This document shows, in pieces, positions 7,644-61,506 of a stretch of DNA of 64,000 nt; the first letter of the stretch is position 1; every line of letters begins with the position of its first letter. Location: assembly GCA_947477565.1 (NCBI GenBank), contig CANJUR010000003.1, positions 62,001 to 126,000 of the forward strand. The letters run 5' to 3'. This DNA comes from Deltaproteobacteria bacterium. Lineage in GTDB: Bacteria; Myxococcota_A; Polyangia; Polyangiales; Ga0077539. Below the pieces are notes generated by a model. That model was given only the letters and a program-made list of their open reading frames with translations. It did not search any database and was not told the DNA's origin. The translations under genes were made by a program, and so were the position numbers.

Positions 7644-9176
7644 CTAGTCGTATTGGGCAGTACCAACGCCTGATGAGCGCGGCGCGGCGATCACCGGCAA
7701 CGCGACCGTAGCCGTAGCCGCCGGCAAGTCCGATCGATGCCGACCGTGACGGTGATGACGGTGATGACGGACCGAATTCAGCGCAGGGCGCTCCTCAATC
7801 GCCGACGCCGGGGCCACAAAGGGAGAGGTCGGCGAGAGCCCGACGACCACCGGCGACGCCACGGGTACGGCGGCATCGGCGACCGGCGTCACCACGGGTA
7901 GCGCGACGCTTGCCGGAGGCGATGGGATCACGGCCCGAACGGCAGTGACCGACGGCGTGGAGCGCAGGACGGCGTGGAGCGCAGCCTCGGGCAGCGGCCC
8001 ACGGTGGCCGCTACTCACGAAGGCCAAGATTGCTATCGCGGCCAGAACGGCGGCGGTGGCACCTACGGTGAGAGCGGTTCGTCGCGCCGGTGGGGGCGAG
8101 CGCACGACCGGCACAAGCGTCTCCTCGCGGCGACCTTCCTGGAGGTCGTTCGAGACGGAAGCTACAGTCTCTTTCGTGGAAAAGTGTTCGGGCTGGGCGT
8201 CAACGGCCAGCGTGCCTCCCACCTCCGCGCGATCGTCGAGGGTGAGGCGCTCGATCTCCGCGGCGGCTACTGCGATGGCGGCGAAAGCGACAACTCCAGT
8301 CGATTCGATGGCTTCGCCCAACTGAAGATGCCGCAGGTCGCGCAGTAAGGGCGCAGCGGAAGGATAACGGGCGGCGAGGTCGCGCCGCAGGCAGCGCTCG
8401 ACGATGCGGGCGTAGTCAGAAGTGACTTCGGGCACGTGCTGGCTCAGCGGAGCGGGATCGCGGGTGCAAATACCGACAAAAATGGCGCCTGCGGAGGGAC
8501 CCATGAAGGGCAACACTCCCGAGGCGAGTTCGTAGAGCATCACCCCGAGCGCCCAGACGTCGGCGCGGGCGTCGAGGTCGCTCGCGCCCTGCAACTGCTC
8601 GGGGGACATGTACGTCGGCTTGCCCATCGCAGTGCCCTTCGCGGTGAGCTTCTCCGCCCCTGGTTGAACGATCTTCGAGATGCCGAAATCGAGCACCCTG
8701 GGGACGACGCCCTGCGTGCTGCTGCTGAGGAAGATGTTCTCGGGCTTCAAGTCGCGGTGCACCACACCGCGTTGGTGGGCGGTGGCGATGGCATCGACCA
8801 CGGGAATCATCAGCGCGAGAATCTCTGCAGGGGGCAGGGAATTTCCGCTGGACTCACGGTGGTGCGCGAGGTTGTGGCCGACCAGCAATTCCTGAACGAC
8901 GAATGGGATGTTCTGGTCGTCAGTGCCCAGGTCGATGACGTCAACCAGATTTTCGTGCTGTATGGCGTTGGCAGCGCGCACCTCGCGGAGGAAACGCTGG
9001 ACGATCTCGGGGTGGCGGCAGAGTTCCGGGCGTAACACCTTGATGGCGACATCGCGCCCGACGAACTCGTCGCGCGCGCGGTAGACCTCACCCATTCCGC
9101 CCACGCCGAGGCGGGTCTGCAATCGATACTTCCCCGCCAGCAGTTCACCCTCTCGGGACTTCATGTCGTCGGTCAT
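7644..9176 (-). CDS. Serine/threonine protein kinase
   Basis: LGVGGMGEVYRARD, VAIKVLRPE, HRDLKPENI, DFGISK, MSPEQL; start placed at MTDDMKSREGELLAGKY. Confidence 0.92.
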   Translation of the reverse strand: MTDDMKSREGELLAGKYRLQTRLGVGGMGEVYRARDEFVGRDVAIKVLRPELCRHPEIVQRFLREVRAANAIQHENLVDVIDLGTDDQNIPFVVQELLVGHNLAHHRESSGNSLPPAEILALMIPVVDAIATAHQRGVVHRDLKPENIFLSSSTQGVVPRVLDFGISKIVQPGAEKLTAKGTAMGKPTYMSPEQLQGASDLDARADVWALGVMLYELASGVLPFMGPSAGAIFVGICTRDPAPLSQHVPEVTSDYARIVERCLRRDLAARYPSAAPLLRDLRHLQLGEAIESTGVVAFAAIAVAAAEIERLTLDDRAEVGGTLAVDAQPEHFSTKETVASVSNDLQEGRREETLVPVVRSPPPARRTALTVGATAAVLAAIAILAFVSSGHRGPLPEAALHAVLRSTPSVTAVRAVIPSPPASVALPVVTPVADAAVPVASPVVVGLSPTSPFVAPASAIEERPALNSVRHHRHHRHGRHRSDLPAATATVALPVIAAPRSSGVGTAQYD

Positions 9177-9254
9177 GACGACCGCGATGCTAATGGACTG
9201 GCGTCCGAATCGCCACGAGTCATCAGTCAGGTACGCACGGCGAAACAAGGGCCA

Positions 9255-9755
9255 TCATTGGACGCATACCCCGCTGACGCACATCGGGACGCCGCCGTCT
9301 TGAGGTGTGGAGCAGCGTCCACGGCATGAACCGCAGTTGTCCGGGTCGCTGTTAATACTGGCCTCGCAGCCGTTACCGGGATTTCGGTCGCAGTCGCGGA
9401 ACCCAGTCGAGCAACGCAATATGCACGCACATTGCTGGCAGACCGCGGCGGCGTTCTCGCCCACCGGACAGACCACGCCGCACCCACCGCAGTTGTTCGT
9501 GTCCGTGATCACCATTCCGAACGCTCCGCCGCCGTCGCATTGCACAGTATTCGTCGGGCAAACGGCCGAGGCATCAACGTCGATGGCACTCGAGTCGCTC
9601 ACATCGCTCGACACGGGCACGTCCATCGCGCCGACTTCCGTGAAGGAGGCGTCCGCATCGACGGCGCGAGGGAAGGTTTTCGGCACGCAGGCGGCGCACA
9701 CGAAGACAGCCGTGAATGCGATGTAACTGAGCGAGCGCGAGAACGGAAACGGCAT
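9255..9755 (-). CDS. Cys-rich putative lipoprotein
   Basis: N-terminal hydrophobic signal with VFVCAAC lipobox-like; multiple Cys in the second half. Confidence 0.6.
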   Translation of the reverse strand: MPFPFSRSLSYIAFTAVFVCAACVPKTFPRAVDADASFTEVGAMDVPVSSDVSDSSAIDVDASAVCPTNTVQCDGGGAFGMVITDTNNCGGCGVVCPVGENAAAVCQQCACILRCSTGFRDCDRNPGNGCEASINSDPDNCGSCRGRCSTPQDGGVPMCVSGVCVQ

Positions 9756-9864
9756 GAATCTCCATGGAACAGACGAATCAACAAATACTTTGGCAGCTTA
9801 TCATCGTCGCAGTCAGCGTTCGCCAGGGCATCGACTCGACATCGTGAAGCACGAGCCCTTGTCG

Positions 9865-10959
9865 CTAGAACAGACCTGCAACATCCAGCGATCCACCGCC
9901 GGAGGTCGGGGTGATTTGAAGCGTGGCGTGGTGCGCACTCGCCGGGCGTGCTCGCCGTCCAACGGCCCACCAAACCACGGCCGTCGCGAGGGCTGCGGCG
10001 CCGGTTCCAAGGGTAATCTGCGCGGAGACAGAGTACCGAGCATAGCTGTCGTAACTCTCCTCTTGCGAGCCAGGGCACCCCAGGGCTGAGTCCGCGCACG
10101 ATGGGTAGGCCGCGCGGCTCAACCCATAGAAAAGACCGGCGATTCCGAGGCTTGCGAGCCCAGCGCCGCCGACGATCCACGGGCCTATACCCGCAGTCGG
10201 GGTCGGTGCGACTGGGTGCGGAGTCAACGGCATCACCGGAGTCAACGGCATCACCGGGGTCAACGGAGTCACTGGGGGCACCGGAGTCGCTATCCTCGCG
10301 GTCGCGACTGGAGCGAGCTCGGCGCGCCGCTCGACAGTCTGCCCTGCGCCGACCTCGATACTTGAACGATAGGTTTCATACCCGTCTGCGCTGACCTCCA
10401 CTGCGATGGCACCGGGAATGACGACGTACGGCAGACCCCACGCTACCGGCGGAATCACCGCACCGCCGATCGACACGTGAAGCCCATCGGGCCGCGGCAT
10501 GGGCAAGCGTAACCGCAACTGGCCAACCTCGCGCTCTGCGCGGGCGATCAACCTCCGACACTCCTCGATGACGTGTTCTCGGTCGGGAATCGCGACGTTG
10601 CGAACCGCTTCGGCCTCGCACTGCGAAGCCTCGCCGAGCGCGAGTACCCAACTGCCCAGGTATTCAGCCTCCCGGGCGATGATTGCCCGCAGCGATGGCG
10701 ACGCAGCGATGCGCTCGGCGCGAAGTGCGAGATCGAGCGACCGCACGTGGTCTCCCGCATCGCTGGCGGCGAGTGCATCCCGAATCGCCTCGCGTCGCGA
10801 AGCCACGAGAGCCGGATCGATTGCCTGCGCCGCGACGCCTGAAGGCCGCGCGGCCATCGCAGTGACGACGAGAGCGAAGTGTAGCCCGACGACGCGGGTC
10901 ACTGCTTTAGCGGGACGGAGCCCGTGTTGCACCTTATCCAAGGGAAAACCGCCTACCAC
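9865..10959 (-). CDS. Hypothetical PEGA-like envelope protein with Pro-rich linker
   Basis: Signal-like N-terminus, PYVVIPGAIAVEVSADGYETYRSSIEVGAGQTVERRAELAPV (PEGA-like), TPVMPLTPVMPLTP repeats, C-terminal TM segments. Confidence 0.65.
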   Translation of the reverse strand: MVGGFPLDKVQHGLRPAKAVTRVVGLHFALVVTAMAARPSGVAAQAIDPALVASRREAIRDALAASDAGDHVRSLDLALRAERIAASPSLRAIIAREAEYLGSWVLALGEASQCEAEAVRNVAIPDREHVIEECRRLIARAEREVGQLRLRLPMPRPDGLHVSIGGAVIPPVAWGLPYVVIPGAIAVEVSADGYETYRSSIEVGAGQTVERRAELAPVATARIATPVPPVTPLTPVMPLTPVMPLTPHPVAPTPTAGIGPWIVGGAGLASLGIAGLFYGLSRAAYPSCADSALGCPGSQEESYDSYARYSVSAQITLGTGAAALATAVVWWAVGRRARPASAHHATLQITPTSGGGSLDVAGLF

Positions 10960-11251
10960 ACAGTGCTTCGGGCGTCACGATTGTGGGGAAGACAAGGGAT
11001 TTGGAAGGGCCGATCGCGTGTCCTCGGAACCCGCCTCCGCCATCTCTTTTCCGAACATTGCTCCGAAGGCGGAACTCCATGTCCCGGCTTCGATACATCG
11101 AACATGAAAACTTCGCCCAGGCAGCCAGAACGCCTTCGGTTCTCGATGTTGCAGACGCAAGCGCAACCTTGCCCGTCTCACCGCCGGGCATTGCCGCGAT
11201 GACGGCCGTCCTGTGGGTACTCTCGACGATGCGCGTGAGCGAAGCGGCGGT

Positions 11252-15049
<3,798 letters not shown>

Positions 15050-51051: not shown

Positions 51052-52158
51052 ATGAACCCTCCGCTGCTCGAGCTGCCCCACCTCCTTGAAATCGCCCACG
51101 CGCGGGCTTCGCTCGCGCCGCGCTTCTACGCGATCGTGTCGGCGCTCGGGTCCCCGCGGGCCGTCTGGGAGGTGCTCCACGGCGCCGGAGTGTTTCCCGA
51201 GCCCGTGGGGCGCTACTACGCCTCGCTACGGCGCTTCGGAGTGGAGACTACCCTCGACGCACTGTTTACCGCCGAGCGGCTGCCCGCGATCCGGCGGTTC
51301 GTAGAGGGACCTCGGACGGTCGGCCCTCCGCGGGTGTCCGTGAGCACCCTTGCGAATCAGTTCTATTGCGAGATGCAGGTGCATCTCGCGCGAACCAACA
51401 CGCTGCGCACCGAAAGCGCCGAGCTTGCTGCGGGCGCGGCCGGACACGCGGCCTTCGAGGCCGAGGCCGAGGAGATCAGCCAGGAAGAGATCAGCGAAGC
51501 CATCACCGCGGGTGAGCCGCTCGAGTTGGTCGAGATGCCCGTGACCGCGGAGATTCACGGCGTGCGCCTCGTCGGACGCGCCGATCGCATCCACCTCGAA
51601 GGCCGACGAGCCCGGCTCGTGCTGGAGTTCAAGTTCTCCGGCCGACGGGAGTTGTTTCCCTCGCACGTGGTGCAGGTCGAAGCGTACGGCCGGATGCTGG
51701 AGTCGATGGGTTTCCAGACTGATCGACTGCTGCACGGCGTGGCCGTGCTCCCGCGCGGTCGGCGAGTGAGCGACGCGCTGGCCCGAAAGATCGCAGAAGC
51801 GGCCTTCGAGGTGGCCCGCGCCGGTCTGAGCGCGACCGATGCACGACCGCCGAGCGGACTTCCCGACCCGCTCTCTGGCCTCACCGTACGGCGGGTCGAT
51901 GACGAGGCGTTCGGGCTGTGGGTGTTTCGCCACTCGAGGCCGCGCGTCGAACGCGACCTGCAATGGGCGACCTCGTACTGGACCGGAGCGCGCCCCCCGG
52001 AAGGGACGCAGGCTCGTGGGAAGTGCCGGGCATGTCCGTTCAATGCAGCGGAGTTGTGCGGGGTATCGAAGGCGCCGCCGGACGGCCGCTACGCAGTGCG
52101 ACGGACGCTGGGACGGTTTGGGGTGACCCACGTCGTCCAGCCAGCGTCGCGACGCTAG
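51052..52158 (+). CDS. Cas4-like PD-(D/E)XK nuclease with Fe-S Cys motif
   Basis: NQFYCEMQVH, GHAAFEAE, GRADRIHLEGRRARLVLEFKFSG (D...ExK), VVQVEAYGRML, CRACPFNAAELCG. Confidence 0.72.
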   Translation: MNPPLLELPHLLEIAHARASLAPRFYAIVSALGSPRAVWEVLHGAGVFPEPVGRYYASLRRFGVETTLDALFTAERLPAIRRFVEGPRTVGPPRVSVSTLANQFYCEMQVHLARTNTLRTESAELAAGAAGHAAFEAEAEEISQEEISEAITAGEPLELVEMPVTAEIHGVRLVGRADRIHLEGRRARLVLEFKFSGRRELFPSHVVQVEAYGRMLESMGFQTDRLLHGVAVLPRGRRVSDALARKIAEAAFEVARAGLSATDARPPSGLPDPLSGLTVRRVDDEAFGLWVFRHSRPRVERDLQWATSYWTGARPPEGTQARGKCRACPFNAAELCGVSKAPPDGRYAVRRTLGRFGVTHVVQPASRR

Positions 52159-52165
52159 CGACGGA

Positions 52166-53167
52166 TCAGAGACGCAAAAGACCAGCGCCCCACGTGTAGC
52201 CGCTGCCAAAGGCGGCGAACAGAATCAGTGAGCCCGGCCCAGCGCGACCCGCGATGAGCGCCTCGGAGAGCGACAGCGGAATCGACGCAGCGGTGGTGTT
52301 GCCGTAGCGATCGATGGTCGTGACGACCTTGTCCATCGGGATGTCGAGCTTTCTCGCGACGAGTTCGTTGATGCGCAGGTTGGCCTGGTGAGGCACGAAA
52401 AGATCAAGGTCCGCCGTGGTCTTACCCGCCTCTGCGAGCACCGCGCGCGACGCCTCGGGCATCTTCTCCGTGGCCCAACGAAACACCTGCTTGCCGTTCA
52501 TGCGGGTGTACTGGCGGCGCTCGTCGAGCATCGCGTGCGTGATGCGCTCCGGTGAGCGGCCGGAGGAGGGGGCTTCGATCCAGAGGTCGGTGGCACCGCG
52601 CCCGTCGGCGCCGAGGGTCAGGCTCAACAGACCGCGGCCCTCCTCCTCGGTCGGACCGAGGACGACCGCGCCCGCGCCGTCCCCGAACAGCACCGTCACG
52701 TCTCGGCCCGCGTCGGTGAAATCGAGGCCGGTGGAGTGAACCTCGGCGCCGACCAGGAGCACCCGGCGGTAGACGCCCGCGCGAATCCACGCGTCGGCGA
52801 TGGAGAGCCCGTAGAGGAAGCCCGAACACTGGTTGCGGATGTCGAGCGCGGGGATGCCCGGCAGCCCAAGCTTCGCCTGGAGAAAGCAGCCATTTCCAGG
52901 GAAGAACGCGTCCGGAGAGAGCGTCGCGAAGATGATCGCGTCGATCTCCGAGAGGGCCACGCCGGCGTTTTCACACGCCATCTTGCAGGCCGGCACCGCG
53001 AGGTCGCTCGAAAACACCCCGTCGCCCTCAATGTAGCGGCGCTCGCGGATGCCTGAGCGCTGGACGATCCACTCGTCGCTCGTGTTGAACAACTTGGCGA
53101 GGTCGTCGTTGGTAACAACCTTCGACGGAACATAGTGACCGACACCCAGGATTGCACTTCGACGCAT
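52166..53167 (-). CDS. fabH: 3-oxoacyl-ACP synthase III
   Basis: MRRSAILGVGHYVPSKVVTNDDLAKLFNTSDEWIVQRSGIRERRY; DIRNQCSGFLYGLSIAD, FVPHQANLRIN, GNTTAASIP. Confidence 0.94.
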   Translation of the reverse strand: MRRSAILGVGHYVPSKVVTNDDLAKLFNTSDEWIVQRSGIRERRYIEGDGVFSSDLAVPACKMACENAGVALSEIDAIIFATLSPDAFFPGNGCFLQAKLGLPGIPALDIRNQCSGFLYGLSIADAWIRAGVYRRVLLVGAEVHSTGLDFTDAGRDVTVLFGDGAGAVVLGPTEEEGRGLLSLTLGADGRGATDLWIEAPSSGRSPERITHAMLDERRQYTRMNGKQVFRWATEKMPEASRAVLAEAGKTTADLDLFVPHQANLRINELVARKLDIPMDKVVTTIDRYGNTTAASIPLSLSEALIAGRAGPGSLILFAAFGSGYTWGAGLLRL

Positions 53168-53205
53168 GCCCAGCGGTCTGCTCGACGACGAGCAATCCGT
53201 CAACG

Positions 53206-56200
53206 TCAACGGTCGATGGCGCGATGACGCAGCGAGCAGCGGGTGAACGAGCCGTGGTCGCCGCGCAGCACCTCGAGTCGCGCCGGAATGCGCTTTCGCA
53301 GCTCTGGAACGTGCGAGATGACACCCACCATGCGGGCATGCTGCGGAAGGCGTTCGAGAAGCTCGATCGCACGCTCGACGGTGTCTTCGTCGAGTGCGCC
53401 GAAGCCCTCATCGACAAAGAGCGACTCGACACGGATGCCGCCCGCCCAGGCCTGGAGCACCTCGCCGAGACCGAGGGCCATCGCGAGCGAGGCCTGGAAT
53501 ACCTCGCCCCCGGAGAGGCTCGCCGCAGGGCGCGGAGCGCCGCCGACGTAGGCGTCATCGACCACCAGATCGAACTCCCGGCCGGTCTGCGCCCTCTCCT
53601 GACGACGTAAGCGAAAGCGGCCGTCGCTCATCGCCTCGAGGCCGGTGCTGGCGCTCGCAACAACACGGTCAAACAAGTCGAGCAGGACGTACCGGCTCAG
53701 TCGAACGCGGCTGGGTCCCTTGCCGTTGGCGATCTCCGACACGCGGCGCACCTGCTGGCTACGCGACTCGGCGACACCGCGGGCCGCCGCGGCTGCCACC
53801 AAAGCGTGGCGCTGCTGATTCATCAAGGCGATGGAGGACTCGACGACACCGAGCGCCCGCTGCATCGACGCCATCCGGGCGCGATGCTCGTCTTCGGCGC
53901 CGATCTCGAGTGGGTCCACGGGCTCGTCCGCCCCGAGCGACGCCAGCGCCTCCTGATGCGTGGCCTCGGCGTGAGCGCGCGACGCCAGCGATTCGGCCAA
54001 GCGCTGGCGTTCGATCGCAGACAGCACCGCGGGCGCGATCGCCGCCTCATCGGAAATTCCTCCCTCCTCCATCGCAAGCGCAAGGCCCGCCGCGCCCTCC
54101 ACGTGAAGCGCCGCCGCGCGCTCGACCTCCGCCCACAGCGTCGGCAGCGCTCCGCCCGCCATCGCAACCGCCTGGGCGATATCCTCGCGGAGCACTCGAG
54201 CCCGCCGGAGCGAGTCCTGCTGGTGTGCGAGGTCATCCTCCAGGGCCCGCAGCGCGCCGACAATCGCCGCAGGACTCATACCAAGCTCTGTAAAAACAAG
54301 GCGTCGCTGCGTGATGTCTTCCACCATCGCCGCGACGCGCGCGCGCACGCCGCCAAGCGCCGTCTGATCCGGGCCGAGGGAAGCGCGCAGGAGGTCTGCG
54401 GTGGCCGCGACGTTGGCCCGCGACCGACGTCCCGTGTCGAGGTCGAGCCGCCGCCGACGCAGCGCCGCCAGCGCGTCCTTTCCGGCCTTCACCTCGCGGG
54501 AGAGGTCCTCCTCATCGATCGCCTCCGCCGTGCCGTGAGAACGCAACGCCGCCTCCGCTTCTTCGATGCGAATCTGGAGCGCAAACACCTCGCGTTGCGC
54601 CTGGGTGTGCGCCGCGGTCACGCGCGCCAAAACCGCTCCATCCACCGTCATTTCATGCGTCGCCGGGCCCTCCCGGGGCGTCGGGTGTTCCGCTGCACCA
54701 CAGACCGGACACGCCTCGCCATGCACCAGGGTCGCAGCGAGCTGCGCAGCCAACTCCTGCCTCGAGGACGCCTCCGCGCGCGCCTGCTTGTCAGTAAGTT
54801 CGCGCCAGGCCTCCTCAGCGTCGCGCTCGATCGCGAGGGCGTCGCGACGCGCCCGCTGGAGGCCACGGAGAGCATCCTCGCGCGACCGCCGCTCCAGGGC
54901 CCGCTGCTGCCGCGCCGAAAGGTTGTCCACACGCGATCGCAGCACGGGCTCCTCCGCCAGGGCTGTCTCGTGCGCGACGATGGTCGCGTCCAGCGCGGCG
55001 ACCGTGCGCGTCGCGTCCGTCAGCGCTTGTTCCCGTGCGGCCAGCGCCACAGTCATTCGATCGGCTTCGGCGGCGCGCTCGGCGGTCTCGTGCTCCAGCA
55101 CTGCGAGCCGCTCGGCCTCGTCGAGCATCCCGCGCAATGCGACCGCGCGAGCCATCGACGAGCGCAGCGTGGCCTCCGTCGCCTCAAAGTGAGCCGGCGT
55201 CAGCACCGGATCGGCCAGCGCGATCGAGAGGCGTTGATGCTCCGCCAGGGCCAGATCGTGCTGCTCACGGCGCTTGCGCAACCCGGATTCCTGTTCGCGC
55301 AGTCGGGTCAGTCGCTCGAGGCACCGCGCGGCGACCTCATCCCGCTCGAGGCGCGCGGCAGAGATCGCCGCGAAGTCCGCCTGGCCTGCGAGTTCATAGA
55401 GCGCGGCCCGGTGGACGCTGCGCTGAGCGTTGCGCCGGGTGACCTCCGCAGCGACGGCGTTGGCGGCGATGACTGTTTCCATCGCCGTGAGGGTCGCGGC
55501 GAGGGCGTCCTCGGTCTCCGCGTAGCGCAGGCGGGACTCGGTGCTTTTCGCGTCGAGGTCTGCGAGGTCCATCGCGCCGACGCTCTCGAGAAGCGTCCGC
55601 AGCACGCTGTCGGCCTTCTCCACATCACCGCGCGCGGATACGTCCATCGTCCGGAGAGCTTCCTCGATGAGGGCGTACCGGGACGTGCCGAAGAGGTGTT
55701 CGAGAAGCCGCTCGCGACGCTCAGCGGGCGCCAGCAGCAGGTCACGGAATTCTCCCTGTGGCAGAACGATCACCCGGGAGAACTGCTCGTGCGGGAGGTG
55801 CAGCAAGCGAACAACCTCGCGAGAGACATCCTTGATGCCCCCGACGGCCTGGAAATTCGGGTCACCGGCGAGGCACTGCAGCGAGGCTGTGGAGCGGCCG
55901 CGGGTGACCGTACCGCGGCGCGACGTCCGCTCGGGCTCGAGCGAGCGGCTCACCCGATAACGCCGATCGCCCAGGGAGAAATCGAGCGTCACCACGGTCG
56001 GAGCGTCCGGCGGAGCAGCGACGTTGCGCAGCATCTCGTCCGTCGCGCGATCGCCAAGACCTTTGCCGTAGAGGGCCCAGGACATCGCGTCGAGAAGCGT
56101 ACTTTTGCCCGCCCCGGTGTCGCCGTGCACGAGGAAGAGCCCCGCGTCGTGGAAGGGCTCCAGGTCGATGGTGTGCTGCGTGTACGGGCCGAAGTGCTGG

Positions 56201-56223
56201 AGAGTGAGAGAGTGCGGCCTCAT
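53206..56223 (-). CDS. sbcC: SMC-like exonuclease subunit SbcC
   Basis: VHGDTGAGKSTLLDAMSWALYG Walker A, HGEACPVCGAAEHP zinc hook, SLSGGEVFQASLAMALGLG signature, LFVDEGFGALDEDT Walker B. Confidence 0.95.
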   Translation of the reverse strand: MRPHSLTLQHFGPYTQHTIDLEPFHDAGLFLVHGDTGAGKSTLLDAMSWALYGKGLGDRATDEMLRNVAAPPDAPTVVTLDFSLGDRRYRVSRSLEPERTSRRGTVTRGRSTASLQCLAGDPNFQAVGGIKDVSREVVRLLHLPHEQFSRVIVLPQGEFRDLLLAPAERRERLLEHLFGTSRYALIEEALRTMDVSARGDVEKADSVLRTLLESVGAMDLADLDAKSTESRLRYAETEDALAATLTAMETVIAANAVAAEVTRRNAQRSVHRAALYELAGQADFAAISAARLERDEVAARCLERLTRLREQESGLRKRREQHDLALAEHQRLSIALADPVLTPAHFEATEATLRSSMARAVALRGMLDEAERLAVLEHETAERAAEADRMTVALAAREQALTDATRTVAALDATIVAHETALAEEPVLRSRVDNLSARQQRALERRSREDALRGLQRARRDALAIERDAEEAWRELTDKQARAEASSRQELAAQLAATLVHGEACPVCGAAEHPTPREGPATHEMTVDGAVLARVTAAHTQAQREVFALQIRIEEAEAALRSHGTAEAIDEEDLSREVKAGKDALAALRRRRLDLDTGRRSRANVAATADLLRASLGPDQTALGGVRARVAAMVEDITQRRLVFTELGMSPAAIVGALRALEDDLAHQQDSLRRARVLREDIAQAVAMAGGALPTLWAEVERAAALHVEGAAGLALAMEEGGISDEAAIAPAVLSAIERQRLAESLASRAHAEATHQEALASLGADEPVDPLEIGAEDEHRARMASMQRALGVVESSIALMNQQRHALVAAAAARGVAESRSQQVRRVSEIANGKGPSRVRLSRYVLLDLFDRVVASASTGLEAMSDGRFRLRRQERAQTGREFDLVVDDAYVGGAPRPAASLSGGEVFQASLAMALGLGEVLQAWAGGIRVESLFVDEGFGALDEDTVERAIELLERLPQHARMVGVISHVPELRKRIPARLEVLRGDHGSFTRCSLRHRAIDR

Positions 56224-57404
56224 GGGGTCTCCGCGGTGCTGACGAGGGCCTCGCGAAACACCGCGCGGTCTTCCTGCGTCGGGGCGCCCGGCCCGTGAAG
56301 GCGAAAGAAATCATCGAAGACCTCCGCGGGACCGCGGCGCTCGTCGGGGATCGCGGCGACCACCGCCAGCGGATCGCGCTCCATCCTGGTTTGCCGGAAT
56401 TCCAGCAGGTGCGGAAACCTCGCGCGCAGCCGCTCCATCGCCTGCGGCGGCATCGGGTGGTCTGTCACCACAGCCTGGACATACCTGGAGGTGTATTCTT
56501 CCAGCGCGGGGTCGCGGAGCAGCGTTTCGAGGTCGCCGTGAATGCGCGCGAGGTCGCGACGCGGGTGCAGCGCCTCCTCCTCGAGGGCGCAGCGGCCGTC
56601 GGCGTCGAGGGTCACCACGGAGAGCGTCCGCGGGTCGTCGCTCTCCTCGAACGCATACCGGAGCAGCGATCCCGAGTACCGCACGCGGCGATCGTCGCCG
56701 ACCCACTGCGGGCGGTGGAGGTGGCCAAGAGCGACGTAAGAGAAGCCATCGAAGTGCGTCACAGGGACGGCGCCGGACCCACCCAGGTACAGCGCCCGCT
56801 CGGAGCGCGGAGACTCCTGCGGGACGGCGACACCCCGGACGAAGCCATGCGCCATGACGACGCTCCGTCGCACCCCACTGCGGACGCGATGCAGGTGCGC
56901 GGGCGCGAGCAGTGCCTCGATGGTCTCCGCGTGCGTGAGGGTGCCGCCGGTCACCGCGACTTCGACGCCCGGCCGCGCGAACATCGCCGCCGCGGCCTCA
57001 GGTTCAACATACGGGATCGGGTAAAATGTCACCTCGCCGTGTCGGTCTTCCAGAGTGACCGGATGGAAGGGCCCGTCGGCGCGCCCCCGCAGGTGCAGGT
57101 CGCCCTGCGCGAAGAGCCACGCGCCGAAGCCGAGGTGCTCTCCGCTATCGTGATTGCCCGCGATGGCGATGACTGGAATTTCGAGGCTCCGGTGCACTTC
57201 TTGTAGGAAATCGTCGAGCAAACGGACGGCTTCGCGCCCCGGGAGCGCCCGATCATAGAGGTCGCCCGCCAGCACCAGGACGTCGGCTTCCGCGGCGCGC
57301 ACACGGCCGACCACCTGTTCGAGAATGTGCCGCTGGTCGTCGATAAGCGAGAGTCCATGGAAGACCCTCCCGATGTGGAGGTCGGCGAGGTGGGCGATGC
57401 GCAT
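56220..57404 (-). CDS. sbcD: Exonuclease subunit SbcD
   Basis: MRIAHLADLHIGRVFHGLSLIDDQRHILEQVV, LAGDLYDRALP, IAGNHDSGEHLGFG. Confidence 0.95.
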   Translation of the reverse strand: MRIAHLADLHIGRVFHGLSLIDDQRHILEQVVGRVRAAEADVLVLAGDLYDRALPGREAVRLLDDFLQEVHRSLEIPVIAIAGNHDSGEHLGFGAWLFAQGDLHLRGRADGPFHPVTLEDRHGEVTFYPIPYVEPEAAAAMFARPGVEVAVTGGTLTHAETIEALLAPAHLHRVRSGVRRSVVMAHGFVRGVAVPQESPRSERALYLGGSGAVPVTHFDGFSYVALGHLHRPQWVGDDRRVRYSGSLLRYAFEESDDPRTLSVVTLDADGRCALEEEALHPRRDLARIHGDLETLLRDPALEEYTSRYVQAVVTDHPMPPQAMERLRARFPHLLEFRQTRMERDPLAVVAAIPDERRGPAEVFDDFFRLHGPGAPTQEDRAVFREALVSTAETP

Positions 57405-57529: not shown

Positions 57530-58798
57530 ATGAGCGACGCCGATGATCTGGTCGAGCTGAGCCACGAAGAGCGTCGAACCATCGACGCGATCTACGAACG
57601 TCGAATGACATCGACGCACTACGAAATCCTCGGAGTGCCACGCGATGCCGAGCGCAAGGTGATTCGCGATGCCTACTTCGCGCTCTCCAAACGCTTTCAT
57701 CCCGATGTGTTCTTCAACCGCTCGCTTGGCTCGTATCGCGTCCGTGTCGACGAGCTCTTTCAAGTCTTCACCCGCGCCTATGACGTGCTCGGCAACGCCA
57801 GGCACCGCGCTGGCTACGACCTGCACATCGCTACGCTGGAGAGCCCATCGCAACCGCCGCCGGCGGTGGTCCCGGAGGTCACGGGCATCGTGTCCGCCGC
57901 TCGCACCGCCGCCCGCGCCGCAACCCCGGAGCCTCCGCGTCCGAGCGTAGCGGCGCTGCCGCCTCCTGGGCACACGATCCCGCGGCCGGTGATGCCGCCG
58001 ATCGGCAGCGCGGTCTTGCCGACGGCTCACGTTCCGGCACCGTCTCAGGCCCAGCCGAAGGTCACCCCGCCGCCGATGCAGCCGCTCGACCCGGACGTCC
58101 TCCGACGGGCGCGCGAGGCGATGACGAGGCGGCTCAACTCCGCGGTGCCTCAACGGCCGTCGGCCACACCCTCGCGGGCGAATTCGACGCCGATCGGCAT
58201 GCCGCCGGCCTCGCAATCGTTTGATCAGATTCCACGCGTGGCGGAGCGCGGTCCCACGATCCAGCAGCTCGTCGATATGGCCGAGGATGCGCAGCACAAA
58301 GGAGACTTCGCCGCAGCGACCGAGACGCTAAAGCAGGCGGTCTCGATCAGCCGGGACGACGAGTCGATTCGTCTCCGCTACGAGGCCGTGCGAAAGCTGT
58401 TCGTAACCCAGCAGGTCGATGGTCACATCGCCGCGGCGCGGGATGCGATGCGAGACGGTCAGCCGTTGGTGGCCGCGAAGCACTGGGAACAGGCCGCCGA
58501 GGGACGTCCGGCGGATTCGCAGTTGTCGCTCAACGCTGCGGAGGTGCTCTCGAAGCACAGCAAGGAGTTCAAACGGGCCACGGATCTCGCACAACGCGTA
58601 CTGATGAGCGATCCCAACAACGTGAAGGCGCACGTGATCCTTGCGGGGATCTTCATCAAGGCCGGTCTCAAGGCCAGTGCGTATGCGTCGATCCAGACGA
58701 TCGTCCGCATCGCCCCGGACTCACCCGCGCTGAAAGAACTCCGCGAGAAGCTCGGGCCGTACACGCTCGCGGAGAAGGTGGGTCTGCGTAGTCGTTGA
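57530..58798 (+). CDS. DnaJ-domain protein with C-terminal TPR-like repeats
   Basis: TSTHYEILGVPRDAERKVIRDAYFALSKRFHPDVFFNR (J-domain, HPD motif). Confidence 0.9.
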   Translation: MSDADDLVELSHEERRTIDAIYERRMTSTHYEILGVPRDAERKVIRDAYFALSKRFHPDVFFNRSLGSYRVRVDELFQVFTRAYDVLGNARHRAGYDLHIATLESPSQPPPAVVPEVTGIVSAARTAARAATPEPPRPSVAALPPPGHTIPRPVMPPIGSAVLPTAHVPAPSQAQPKVTPPPMQPLDPDVLRRAREAMTRRLNSAVPQRPSATPSRANSTPIGMPPASQSFDQIPRVAERGPTIQQLVDMAEDAQHKGDFAAATETLKQAVSISRDDESIRLRYEAVRKLFVTQQVDGHIAAARDAMRDGQPLVAAKHWEQAAEGRPADSQLSLNAAEVLSKHSKEFKRATDLAQRVLMSDPNNVKAHVILAGIFIKAGLKASAYASIQTIVRIAPDSPALKELREKLGPYTLAEKVGLRSR

Positions 58799-58832: not shown

Positions 58833-61001
58833 ATGGCCGACGTAGAAGCGCTGCTCAAACGGATGGTGGGAGAGAGGGCGTCCGACCTGTTTCTTACGGA
58901 GGGTCGGCCTCCTTCGATTCGGGTCAACGGCTCGCTCGTGACCCTCGGAGATGCAGCGCTCGAACACGAGACCCTCAAGGAATTCATGGACACCGTGCTG
59001 CGCCCTACGCAGCGCGACGCGTTCGACCGCCTGGGCGACGTGGACGTGGGCGTCAGCCGCCCGGGGCTGGGTCGCTTCCGTGCGCATTTCCATCTGCAAC
59101 GGGGCCTGATCGGTGCGGTGATCCGGCTGGTGCCGGGTGGGCAACTGGACTTCGACGTGCTCGGCCTCCCGGCGGTCATCGCGACGCTCGCGGACGCCCC
59201 GCGCGGGCTAGTTCTGGTCACCGGGAGCACCGGGTCGGGCAAGAGCACGACGCTCGCGGCGATGGTGCATCACATCAACACCCATTACGCCCGGCACATC
59301 GTCACCCTCGAAGACCCGATCGAGTTTGTCCACGAAGACCTCAAGGGGCTGGTCACCCAACGGGAGGTGGGGAGCGACACGCGGGACTTCACCCTGGCGC
59401 TGAGGCACGTGGTGCGCGAGAGCCCGGACGTCATCCTCATCGGCGAGATGCGCGACGCCGAGACGATGAACGTGGCCCTCTCCGCGGCGCTCACCGGGCA
59501 CCTCGTGCTGAGCAGCGTGCACACCATCGACTCGCTGCAGACCCTCCAGCGCATCCTCGGGTACTACCCTGAGCACCTGCGCGAGCAGGTCGCGATGGAC
59601 CTCTCGATCTGCCTCCAGGGGATCGTGTCGCAGCGCCTGGTGCCGCGCGCCGAGGGGGAAGGGCGGGTGGCCGCGGTAGAGGTGATGGTCGCGACGCCGC
59701 CGGTGCGAAAGCTTATTCGTGAGCAGCGCGTGGACGAGATTGAAGACCTCATGCTGCAGGGGGCCGACGGGATGCAGACGTTCAATCGGGCGTTGGTGCA
59801 ACTCTACGAAAAGGGCGTCGTGAGCTACGAGACCGGCGCGGCATACGCGACGAATCCAGACGAGTTCCGCATGAACGCGCAGGGGATGGAGCGGGGCTCG
59901 GCGGCCTTCGTGGCGGAGCATGACGCGCTGCCCGCAGTAGGGAGCGTCGACATGCGGACGCTGCTCAACATCGCGCTGCGTTACGGGGCTAGTGACATCC
60001 ACCTCGTGGTGGGTTCCGCGCCGATCTTCCGCATCCACGGGAAGCTCCGGCGTCTCGAGGTCGATTCGCTTTCCCCCGGCGACGTCCGTCGGCTTCTTTT
60101 TTCGCTGCTTTCGCATGGTCAGCGCGAGAGCTTCGAGCTCGACCGCGAACTCGACTTCGCTCTCACCGTCACCGGCAAGCACCGGTTTCGGGTCAACGCG
60201 CACTTCCAGCGCGGCACCGTCGCCGTCGCGCTACGCCTCATCCCCAATTCTATTCCCGACGCCGCGACGCTCGGGCTGCCGCCGATCGTGCGTGAACTTG
60301 CAACGAGGCCTCATGGTCTCGTGCTCGTCACGGGCCCCACCGGCGCCGGGAAGAGCACGACGCTGGCGACGATGGTCGACCAGGTCAACTCGTCGCGCAG
60401 TTGCCACATCATCACCATCGAAGACCCGATCGAGTTCGTGCACTACAACCGCATGGCGACGGTCGAACAGCGCGAGGTCGGGCCGGACACCCGCAGCTTC
60501 GCCGCGGCGCTGAAGTTCATTCTCCGCCAGGACCCCGACGTGATCCTGATCGGTGAGTTGCGGGACATCGAGACGATCTCCGCGGCGCTTACCGCAGCAG
60601 AGACCGGTCACCTCGTGCTCGCAACGCTGCACACCAACGACGCGCCGCAGACCGTCGATCGCATCGTCGATGTCTTCCCCCCGCACCAGCAGTCCCAGGC
60701 GAGGGTGCAGCTCTCCGCCGCGCTGCAAGCGGTGGTGTCGCAGCGCCTGCTCACGCGGGCCGACGGGAAAGGGCGCATCGCCTGCTTCGAGGTGCTCATT
60801 GCGACCGCCGCGGTGCGCGCGATCATCCGCGACGGCAAGACCCACCAGCTGCTGAGCACGATGGAGACCGCGCAGCGCGACGGAATGATCACGATGGACC
60901 GGGCGGTGGTCGATCTCGTGAAGGCCGGGCACATCACGGTGGAAGAGGGTGCTCGGTACATGCGCAACCCGTCGGCATTGAAGGGTTTTATTGATGCCTG
61001 A
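58833..61001 (+). CDS. Tandem (double) PilT-type ATPase
   Basis: Two complete modules in one ORF: GSTGSGKSTTLAAMVHHIN/DVILIGEMRD and GPTGAGKSTTLATMVDQVN/DVILIGELRD. Confidence 0.93.
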   Translation: MADVEALLKRMVGERASDLFLTEGRPPSIRVNGSLVTLGDAALEHETLKEFMDTVLRPTQRDAFDRLGDVDVGVSRPGLGRFRAHFHLQRGLIGAVIRLVPGGQLDFDVLGLPAVIATLADAPRGLVLVTGSTGSGKSTTLAAMVHHINTHYARHIVTLEDPIEFVHEDLKGLVTQREVGSDTRDFTLALRHVVRESPDVILIGEMRDAETMNVALSAALTGHLVLSSVHTIDSLQTLQRILGYYPEHLREQVAMDLSICLQGIVSQRLVPRAEGEGRVAAVEVMVATPPVRKLIREQRVDEIEDLMLQGADGMQTFNRALVQLYEKGVVSYETGAAYATNPDEFRMNAQGMERGSAAFVAEHDALPAVGSVDMRTLLNIALRYGASDIHLVVGSAPIFRIHGKLRRLEVDSLSPGDVRRLLFSLLSHGQRESFELDRELDFALTVTGKHRFRVNAHFQRGTVAVALRLIPNSIPDAATLGLPPIVRELATRPHGLVLVTGPTGAGKSTTLATMVDQVNSSRSCHIITIEDPIEFVHYNRMATVEQREVGPDTRSFAAALKFILRQDPDVILIGELRDIETISAALTAAETGHLVLATLHTNDAPQTVDRIVDVFPPHQQSQARVQLSAALQAVVSQRLLTRADGKGRIACFEVLIATAAVRAIIRDGKTHQLLSTMETAQRDGMITMDRAVVDLVKAGHITVEEGARYMRNPSALKGFIDA

Positions 61002-61506
61002 TGGAGAGCTGCGCCGCACGGCGGCAAACCGGGTACGCCGACTGTTGGATGGCGCTCCCGGCGTCACGCAGAGACAGGCGATCGGCAGCGTGATCACGGT
61101 GACCCGGATGGCACTCGACCAGTTGGTCAACGACCGCGGGCTCTTCGCCCACGCGATCGATCGAGTGGAGGATTGGCTCCGCGGATCCGTGGGGGAGGAG
61201 TCCTTGCTTCTCATACGGGAGGATCTCTCTGCGGCTGCGACGCGGGCCGACCTCGAGGATGACCGCGGCGCCTGGCTGGCGATGGAGGCCGTCGTGTCGC
61301 TGCTCGACACCGCCCTGACTCGCGAGCCCTGGGCGGTCGGACTCCGCGGTTGGCGCGCGGTCATGTGCACCGCGGAGTCGATGGCCTGGCCGGACCTCGA
61401 CGCGTCGGAGATTCTCGAGGAGATCGACAACCGACTGCACGACGTGCTCGACCGCAGCGGCGCTCCCGATGGCGCGGAGACCCGGGTCTCCATCGCGGAG
61501 CGCTGA
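60994..61506 (+). CDS. Hypothetical protein overlapping the tandem PilT gene
   Basis: ATG at 60994 overlaps the last 8 nt of the preceding gene; 170-aa ORF with good composition. Confidence 0.65.
   Translation: MPDGELRRTAANRVRRLLDGAPGVTQRQAIGSVITVTRMALDQLVNDRGLFAHAIDRVEDWLRGSVGEESLLLIREDLSAAATRADLEDDRGAWLAMEAVVSLLDTALTREPWAVGLRGWRAVMCTAESMAWPDLDASEILEEIDNRLHDVLDRSGAPDGAETRVSIAER

Follow-up and report, generated by a model that had tools for sequence, protein, structure and literature searches.

A fused PilU-like and PilT-like ATPase of Myxococcota and Verrucomicrobiota as a candidate two-motor machine for type IV pilus retraction

Introduction

PilT, the retraction ATPase of type IVa pili (PDB 6ojx, 5zfq, 2gsz, 3jvv), is canonically a single module of about 350–380 aa, and PilU (PDB 9n32), a PilT-dependent retraction ATPase of Proteobacteria, is a separate protein that is usually encoded beside PilT. 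The two form separate homohexamers and no mixed hexamers (PMC6821130), and these hexamers probably stack (PMC13142100, PMC12607626). A PilU-like density was found beneath PilT by cryo-electron tomography, together with a model in which the C-terminal domain of PilU contacts two N-terminal domains of PilT (PMC13142100), and a back-to-back arrangement of PilT and PilU via their C-terminal faces has been mentioned in a discussion (PMC12607626). Rings of both proteins show C3 alternation of open and closed interfaces (PMC6858323, PMC12607626). How PilT and PilU cooperate is debated, i.e., whether the rings are separate or stacked, which faces meet, and in what ratio the two proteins are present.

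Here, we analyzed a gene at positions 58833–61001 (+ strand) of the window, the 64,000-nucleotide stretch of DNA under study, that encodes two ATPase modules of this family in one chain. Our search of the open-access literature (subscription papers and preprints lay outside it) returned no paper describing such a PilU-like/PilT-like fusion.

Results

Two complete ATPase modules in one protein

The gene is a single open reading frame of 722 aa, with zero internal stops in the translation. The PilT/PilU family profile TIGR01420 matches it twice (N-terminal module: 414.6 bits; C-terminal module: 459.3 bits; whole protein: 867 bits), each time well beyond the curated cut-off of 319.1 bits. Instead of the single-module size of about 350–400 aa that is typical of this family, the protein therefore comprises two full modules, as the original prediction had proposed: the N module at aa 1–350 (58833–59882), with an N2D domain and a RecA-like ATPase domain, and the C module at aa 372–722 (59946–60998). 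The modules share 44% identity over 345 aa (E = 2e-98) and are joined by a linker (aa 351–371; 59883–59945) that is preceded by NPDEFxxxxxGM. An AlphaFold2 model of the whole chain, built from an alignment of 22 sequences, shows two complete PilT folds (mean pLDDT 85), and its closest structural matches are Geobacter PilT4, P. aeruginosa PilU, and T. thermophilus PilT2. Residues 353–370 fall below pLDDT 50, and the pTM of the whole chain is 0.49; thus, each module is well modelled, whereas their position relative to one another is undefined. What had been read as a PAS-like region at the N-terminus is the normal N2D domain of PilT, which is present in both modules.

All four catalytic motifs were located in both halves by translation and alignment. 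The N module contains the Walker A motif (GSTGSGKST, aa 131–139, 59223–59249), the Asp box (IVTLEDPIE, aa 156–164, 59298–59324), the Walker B motif (DVILIGEMRD, aa 199–208, 59427–59456) with catalytic E205, and the His box (TGHLVLSSVHT, aa 221–231, 59493–59525). Their counterparts in the C module are GPTGAGKST (aa 501–509, 60333–60359), IITIEDPIE (aa 526–534, 60408–60434), DVILIGELRD (aa 569–578, 60537–60566) with catalytic E575, and TGHLVLATLHT (aa 591–601, 60603–60635). The motifs quoted in the original prediction are among these, with its longer versions of Walker A reaching aa 141 (GSTGSGKSTTL, aa 131–141) and aa 511 (GPTGAGKSTTL, aa 501–511). The concern that one half might lack catalytic residues is not borne out by the alignment, in which Asp box, His box, and catalytic Glu are all present in both halves. 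In 55 out of 60 fusions, both modules retain all ten residues compared (Walker A, Asp box, Walker B, His box, and arginine positions).

Distribution of the fusion and selection on the junction

Full-length homologues exist in four other species of the same genus (93–94% identity), in two further genera of the same family (76–78%), and across many other families (43–78%). Surveying related genomes showed that the architecture is widespread: one match spans both modules in 56 of the 379 Myxococcota genomes drawn for the sample (16 families; counted from the match list, with a few cut by contig ends), and the full-length fusion is present in 47 of 195 Verrucomicrobiota genomes (also counted from the match list). 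It was not found at E < 1e-120 in 247 genomes of the phylum to which genome G406 belongs, 40 Sumerlaeota genomes, and 246 Planctomycetota genomes, with four candidates scored per genome in the sets of 247 and 246. The planctomycete matches of a homologue search were mostly pairs of a PilB-like and a PilT gene and not fusions. A suspected second fusion in genome G025 (an open frame of 1479 aa) was two separate genes.

Within the genus, dN/dS is 0.04–0.11 in the modules (N: 0.08–0.11; C: 0.04–0.05) and 0–0.03 in the linker. These low values, including those of the linker, demonstrate that the junction is kept by selection, and purifying selection across it is strong. Given that the source genome is a draft of 252 contigs, the open reading frame might be an artefact in which an assembly or sequencing error joined two genes, and a missed stop near residue 370 had been named as the error to look for. 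Full-length homologues in the same genus and many other families show that no such stop was missed, and the same frame recurs in two phyla, in about 100 genomes that are independent of one another. Together with the purifying selection across the junction, this rules out the artefact, the probability of which is practically nil, and the gene is confirmed as a genuine fusion of two PilT/PilU-family ATPase modules.

The two halves belong to different parts of the PilT family

In trees of 105–131 modules, the N modules of all fusions form one clade and the C modules another (support 100/100 and 100/99), and both were recovered in a rebuilt tree. The C modules lie inside the PilT core as a clade of their own, apart from the canonical PilT encoded with pilB and pilC (the clade of Geobacter and Aquifex PilT). 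The N modules sit outside the well-supported PilU clade (100/100); an approximately unbiased (AU) test did not reject N and PilU as one clade (p = 0.46), and the N module may share a clade with PilU. In one rebuild, a branch with SH-aLRT support of 99 separates the N modules, PilU, T. thermophilus PilT2, and some free genes from the C modules and all PilT-core proteins. At the alignment positions that discriminate between PilU and PilT, the N module is PilU-like (F20, A/S132, T175, non-D197, M212, F317), and the C module is PilT-like at most of them.

With 44% identity between the halves, the two modules might also have come from one PilT gene by recent tandem duplication. However, the tree places each half nearer to proteins from outside the fusion than to its partner half, and free-standing N-type and C-type genes are found, separately, in other phyla. 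Moreover, the AU test rejected a joint clade of N and C modules (p = 0.00015) and thereby rules out internal duplication under the model used, so that we give this alternative next to no weight. The trees and the alignment instead support a fusion of two unlike PilT-family motors, with the PilU-like motor first and the PilT-like motor second. This agrees with the PilT–PilU-like identity originally suggested for the two halves and adds their order.

The halves also differ in how they evolve. The summed branch length is 31.6 for N modules vs 19.5 for C modules, i.e., the N module evolves faster. In family f9 (loci L030, L031, and L032), several catalytic residues of the N module have been lost, with changes that vary by member (Walker A K→R; E205→D or Q; H230→A, D, or N), and those of the C module are intact. 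Single changes were found in L029 (His box, N module) and L145 (Walker A, C module). Faster evolution of N and loss of its catalytic residues beside an intact C are as expected for a helper and a main motor, and the asymmetry fits a C module that would be the main motor and an N module that would be its helper. Family f9 provides a second case for asking why a catalytically decayed helper module is kept.

Origin of the fusion

Planctomycete genome G1188 (locus L300) carries an unfused counterpart, in which the start of a C-type gene overlaps the end of the N-type gene directly before it by 4 bp (ATGA). In the tree, the first of the two genes branches as sister to all N modules (98/93), and its downstream partner belongs to the C clade (100/98). 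The N-type protein of this pair has a C-terminal tail, NPDEFRLNMEGM, that agrees with the beginning of the linker, and its end, NPDEFRLNMEGMFTGV, corresponds to NPDEFxLxxxGMxxG, the motif with which the linker begins in the fusions. A free N-type protein from a Sumerlaeota genome likewise ends in a close variant of this motif. The first part of the linker is thus the former C-terminal tail of the N-type protein. The L300 pair is most simply explained as the pre-fusion state, the alternative being the product of a later split of a fusion. Separate N and C clades and an unfused pair in the same order point to a fusion, PilU-like then PilT-like, that was made once from two adjacent genes. Most simply, then, the fusion has a single origin, and it would have arisen by one read-through event between two adjacent, translationally coupled genes.

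For both halves, Chthoniobacteraceae fusions nest inside a Myxococcota subclade, which suggests that they were acquired by horizontal transfer. The Chthoniobacteraceae loci (L055, L056, and L057) stand apart from other Verrucomicrobiota fusions in the tree. In another planctomycete genome (G1166, locus L302), a free C-type PilT gene (8587–9726) overlaps a GGDEF-EAL gene (9723–11663) by 4 bp, a hint of c-di-GMP control of the C-type motor.

Genomic neighbourhood and pilus machinery

The fusion gene is preceded, 34 bp upstream and on the same strand, by a gene for a 422-aa DnaJ-domain protein with C-terminal TPRs (57530–58798, +), with which it is probably co-transcribed. It is followed by a gene for a small protein of ~170 aa (60994–61506, +) that matches no known family and whose ATG start overlaps the stop of the fusion by 8 bp. 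Both neighbours are kept beside the fusion only in its own family (f1). Other families have unrelated genes at this place (cytochrome-oxidase-like ones in f41; dut-like or ispF-like ones in Verrucomicrobiota), and because these vary by family, operon context gives no lead to function. A scan for promoters and terminators returned nothing above chance. Further upstream, SbcC-like and SbcD-like nuclease genes (53206–57404, −) overlap by 4 bp and adjoin a FabH-like gene (52166–53209) and an Exo5-like nuclease gene (51052–52158, +).

No pil genes were recognised near the fusion in 32 loci and a further 20 Verrucomicrobiota loci, in line with the original prediction, which had noted the absence of adjacent pilus genes. 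They were mapped elsewhere in the source genome: a pilB-pilT-pilC locus on contig C5, with canonical PilT as another gene, and a PilM match on contig C2. Because this canonical set is present, the fusion is an additional motor there. The source genome also encodes four further PilT-like proteins in two tandem pairs (C8 and C32; L014 6647–9088 and 9091–10809; L015 9047–10561 and 10578–12248). These carry N-terminal HEAT repeats or long low-complexity or unassigned extensions and are encoded far from the canonical pilBTC locus; they belong to other branches of the tree, which rules them out as the origin of the fusion.

Canonical PilT is also present in most fusion bearers, and a PilM family protein was found in all 24 fusion-bearing genomes checked, a comparison that covers bearers only. 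In family f27 (genomes G078 and G193), pilB lies directly beside pilC in a cluster that lacks an intervening pilT, and canonical PilT was not found in either of these draft assemblies (92–97% completeness). The only other strong PilT-type protein in the f27 genomes is encoded by L289 in G078 and belongs to a different branch of the family. L289 (6254–8140) is a PilT-type ATPase with N-terminal cNMP-binding and MshEN (c-di-GMP-type) domains. It may be a retraction motor under the control of a nucleotide messenger, and long-frame PilT matches in G193 and G162 look like its relatives. Genome G085, a draft of 92–97% completeness, has the fusion and one divergent PilT-like gene only.

Discussion

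A probable retraction motor of type IV pili

From the absence of adjacent pilus genes, it had been suggested that the role of the fusion may not be classic twitching. The absence stands for every family examined, and canonical PilT usually coexists with the fusion, in the source genome alongside four more PilT-like proteins. Thus, the fusion might serve another system, such as a type IV-like filament, a secretion system, or surface signalling, with the DnaJ/TPR protein as partner. This is weakened by the confinement of the DnaJ/TPR neighbour to family f1, the presence of PilM in 24/24 bearers, the f27 genomes in which canonical PilT was not found, and the scores of both modules far above the PilT/PilU cut-off, and we regard it as quite improbable. 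Instead, the protein is likely to act on type IV pili as a retraction motor with a PilU-like and a PilT-like part, and the best reading of its place in the cell is that of an accessory, sometimes perhaps main, retraction motor.

Ring geometry

We propose that a PilU-like and a PilT-like ATPase, connected covalently through a short linker, would work as a type IV pilus retraction motor of single fusion origin in the form of a stacked double ring, and we assign this explanation as a whole a probability of about 0.55. Each module would form its own ring, so that six chains would yield two stacked hexamers, the PilU-like ring contacting the N-terminal face of its PilT-like partner through its own C-terminal face. 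In this machine, the obligate motor would be the C module, which would act on the platform protein PilC, and the N module would serve as a power booster. As one chain, the protein would set the ratio at 1:1 and prevent loss of the helper ring. Provided that the protein is indeed a retraction motor on type IV pili, the stacked double ring is reasonably probable.

The original prediction had envisaged another geometry, in which three chains build one pseudo-hexamer with N and C modules alternating 1:1 around a single ring. PilT packing uses contacts between neighbouring subunits that the inter-module stretch (18–32 residues, typically 25–27, among the aligned fusions) could span, and the C3 alternation of PilT and PilU rings (PMC6858323, PMC12607626) would also suit such a ring. 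On the other hand, mixed PilT/PilU hexamers do not form (PMC6821130), and the N module can lose catalytic residues while the C module is fully conserved. Covariation among 64 sequences, an analysis of low power, gave higher values for known ring-contact pairs within modules than across them, with no cross-module signal; part of the signal is due to the joint loss of catalytic residues in f9. The three-chain ring is therefore unlikely, and the six-chain stacked double ring is preferred because the published PilT and PilU hexamers are separate and probably stacked (PMC6821130, PMC13142100, PMC12607626).

The order of the chain, from the C-terminus of the PilU-like module to the N-terminus of the PilT-like module over 18–32 residues, suits the stacked arrangement modelled for PilU and PilT (PMC13142100), and so short a linker would not favour the back-to-back arrangement (PMC12607626). 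More tentatively, and with the odds against it, the protein may be an obligately 1:1 double-ring motor, with its PilU-like C-terminal face on its PilT-like N-terminal face, that serves as the main motor in some lineages (family f27, in whose genomes canonical PilT was not found). If this were true, the order of the modules in the chain would decide the polarity and the stoichiometry of PilT–PilU assemblies, both of which are disputed. Many myxobacteria and Verrucomicrobia have conserved the joined form, which would thus represent a natural 1:1 version of a two-motor machine. Because a conserved natural fusion fixes ratio and order, imaging a single expressed protein would answer the PilT/PilU question directly. 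Furthermore, PilU-like helper motors would not be confined to Proteobacteria.

Comparison with known retraction ATPases

The N module resembles PilU in its fold, catalytic motifs, and discriminating residues (F20, A/S132, T175, M212, F317), and both lie outside the PilT core clade. However, it falls outside the PilU clade and occupies the first position in a chain shared with its partner. Its best sequence match among solved structures is T. thermophilus PilT2 (PDB 5fl3; E = 5e-98), which groups with N and PilU on one side of the tree but is a single module and not sister to the N clade. The C module is, like PilT, a member of the PilT core clade with Walker A, Asp box, catalytic Glu, His box, and an RNLIRE-like motif; in contrast to the PilT of pilB-pilT-pilC loci, it forms its own clade, is not encoded with pilB and pilC, and is one of two modules in its chain. 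The C8 and C32 pairs of the source genome also place two PilT-family ATPases side by side, although as separate genes from other branches of the family. In the planctomycete L300 pair, each module has a close relative and the order is unchanged, with the genes overlapping by 4 bp, but the products are two proteins rather than one.
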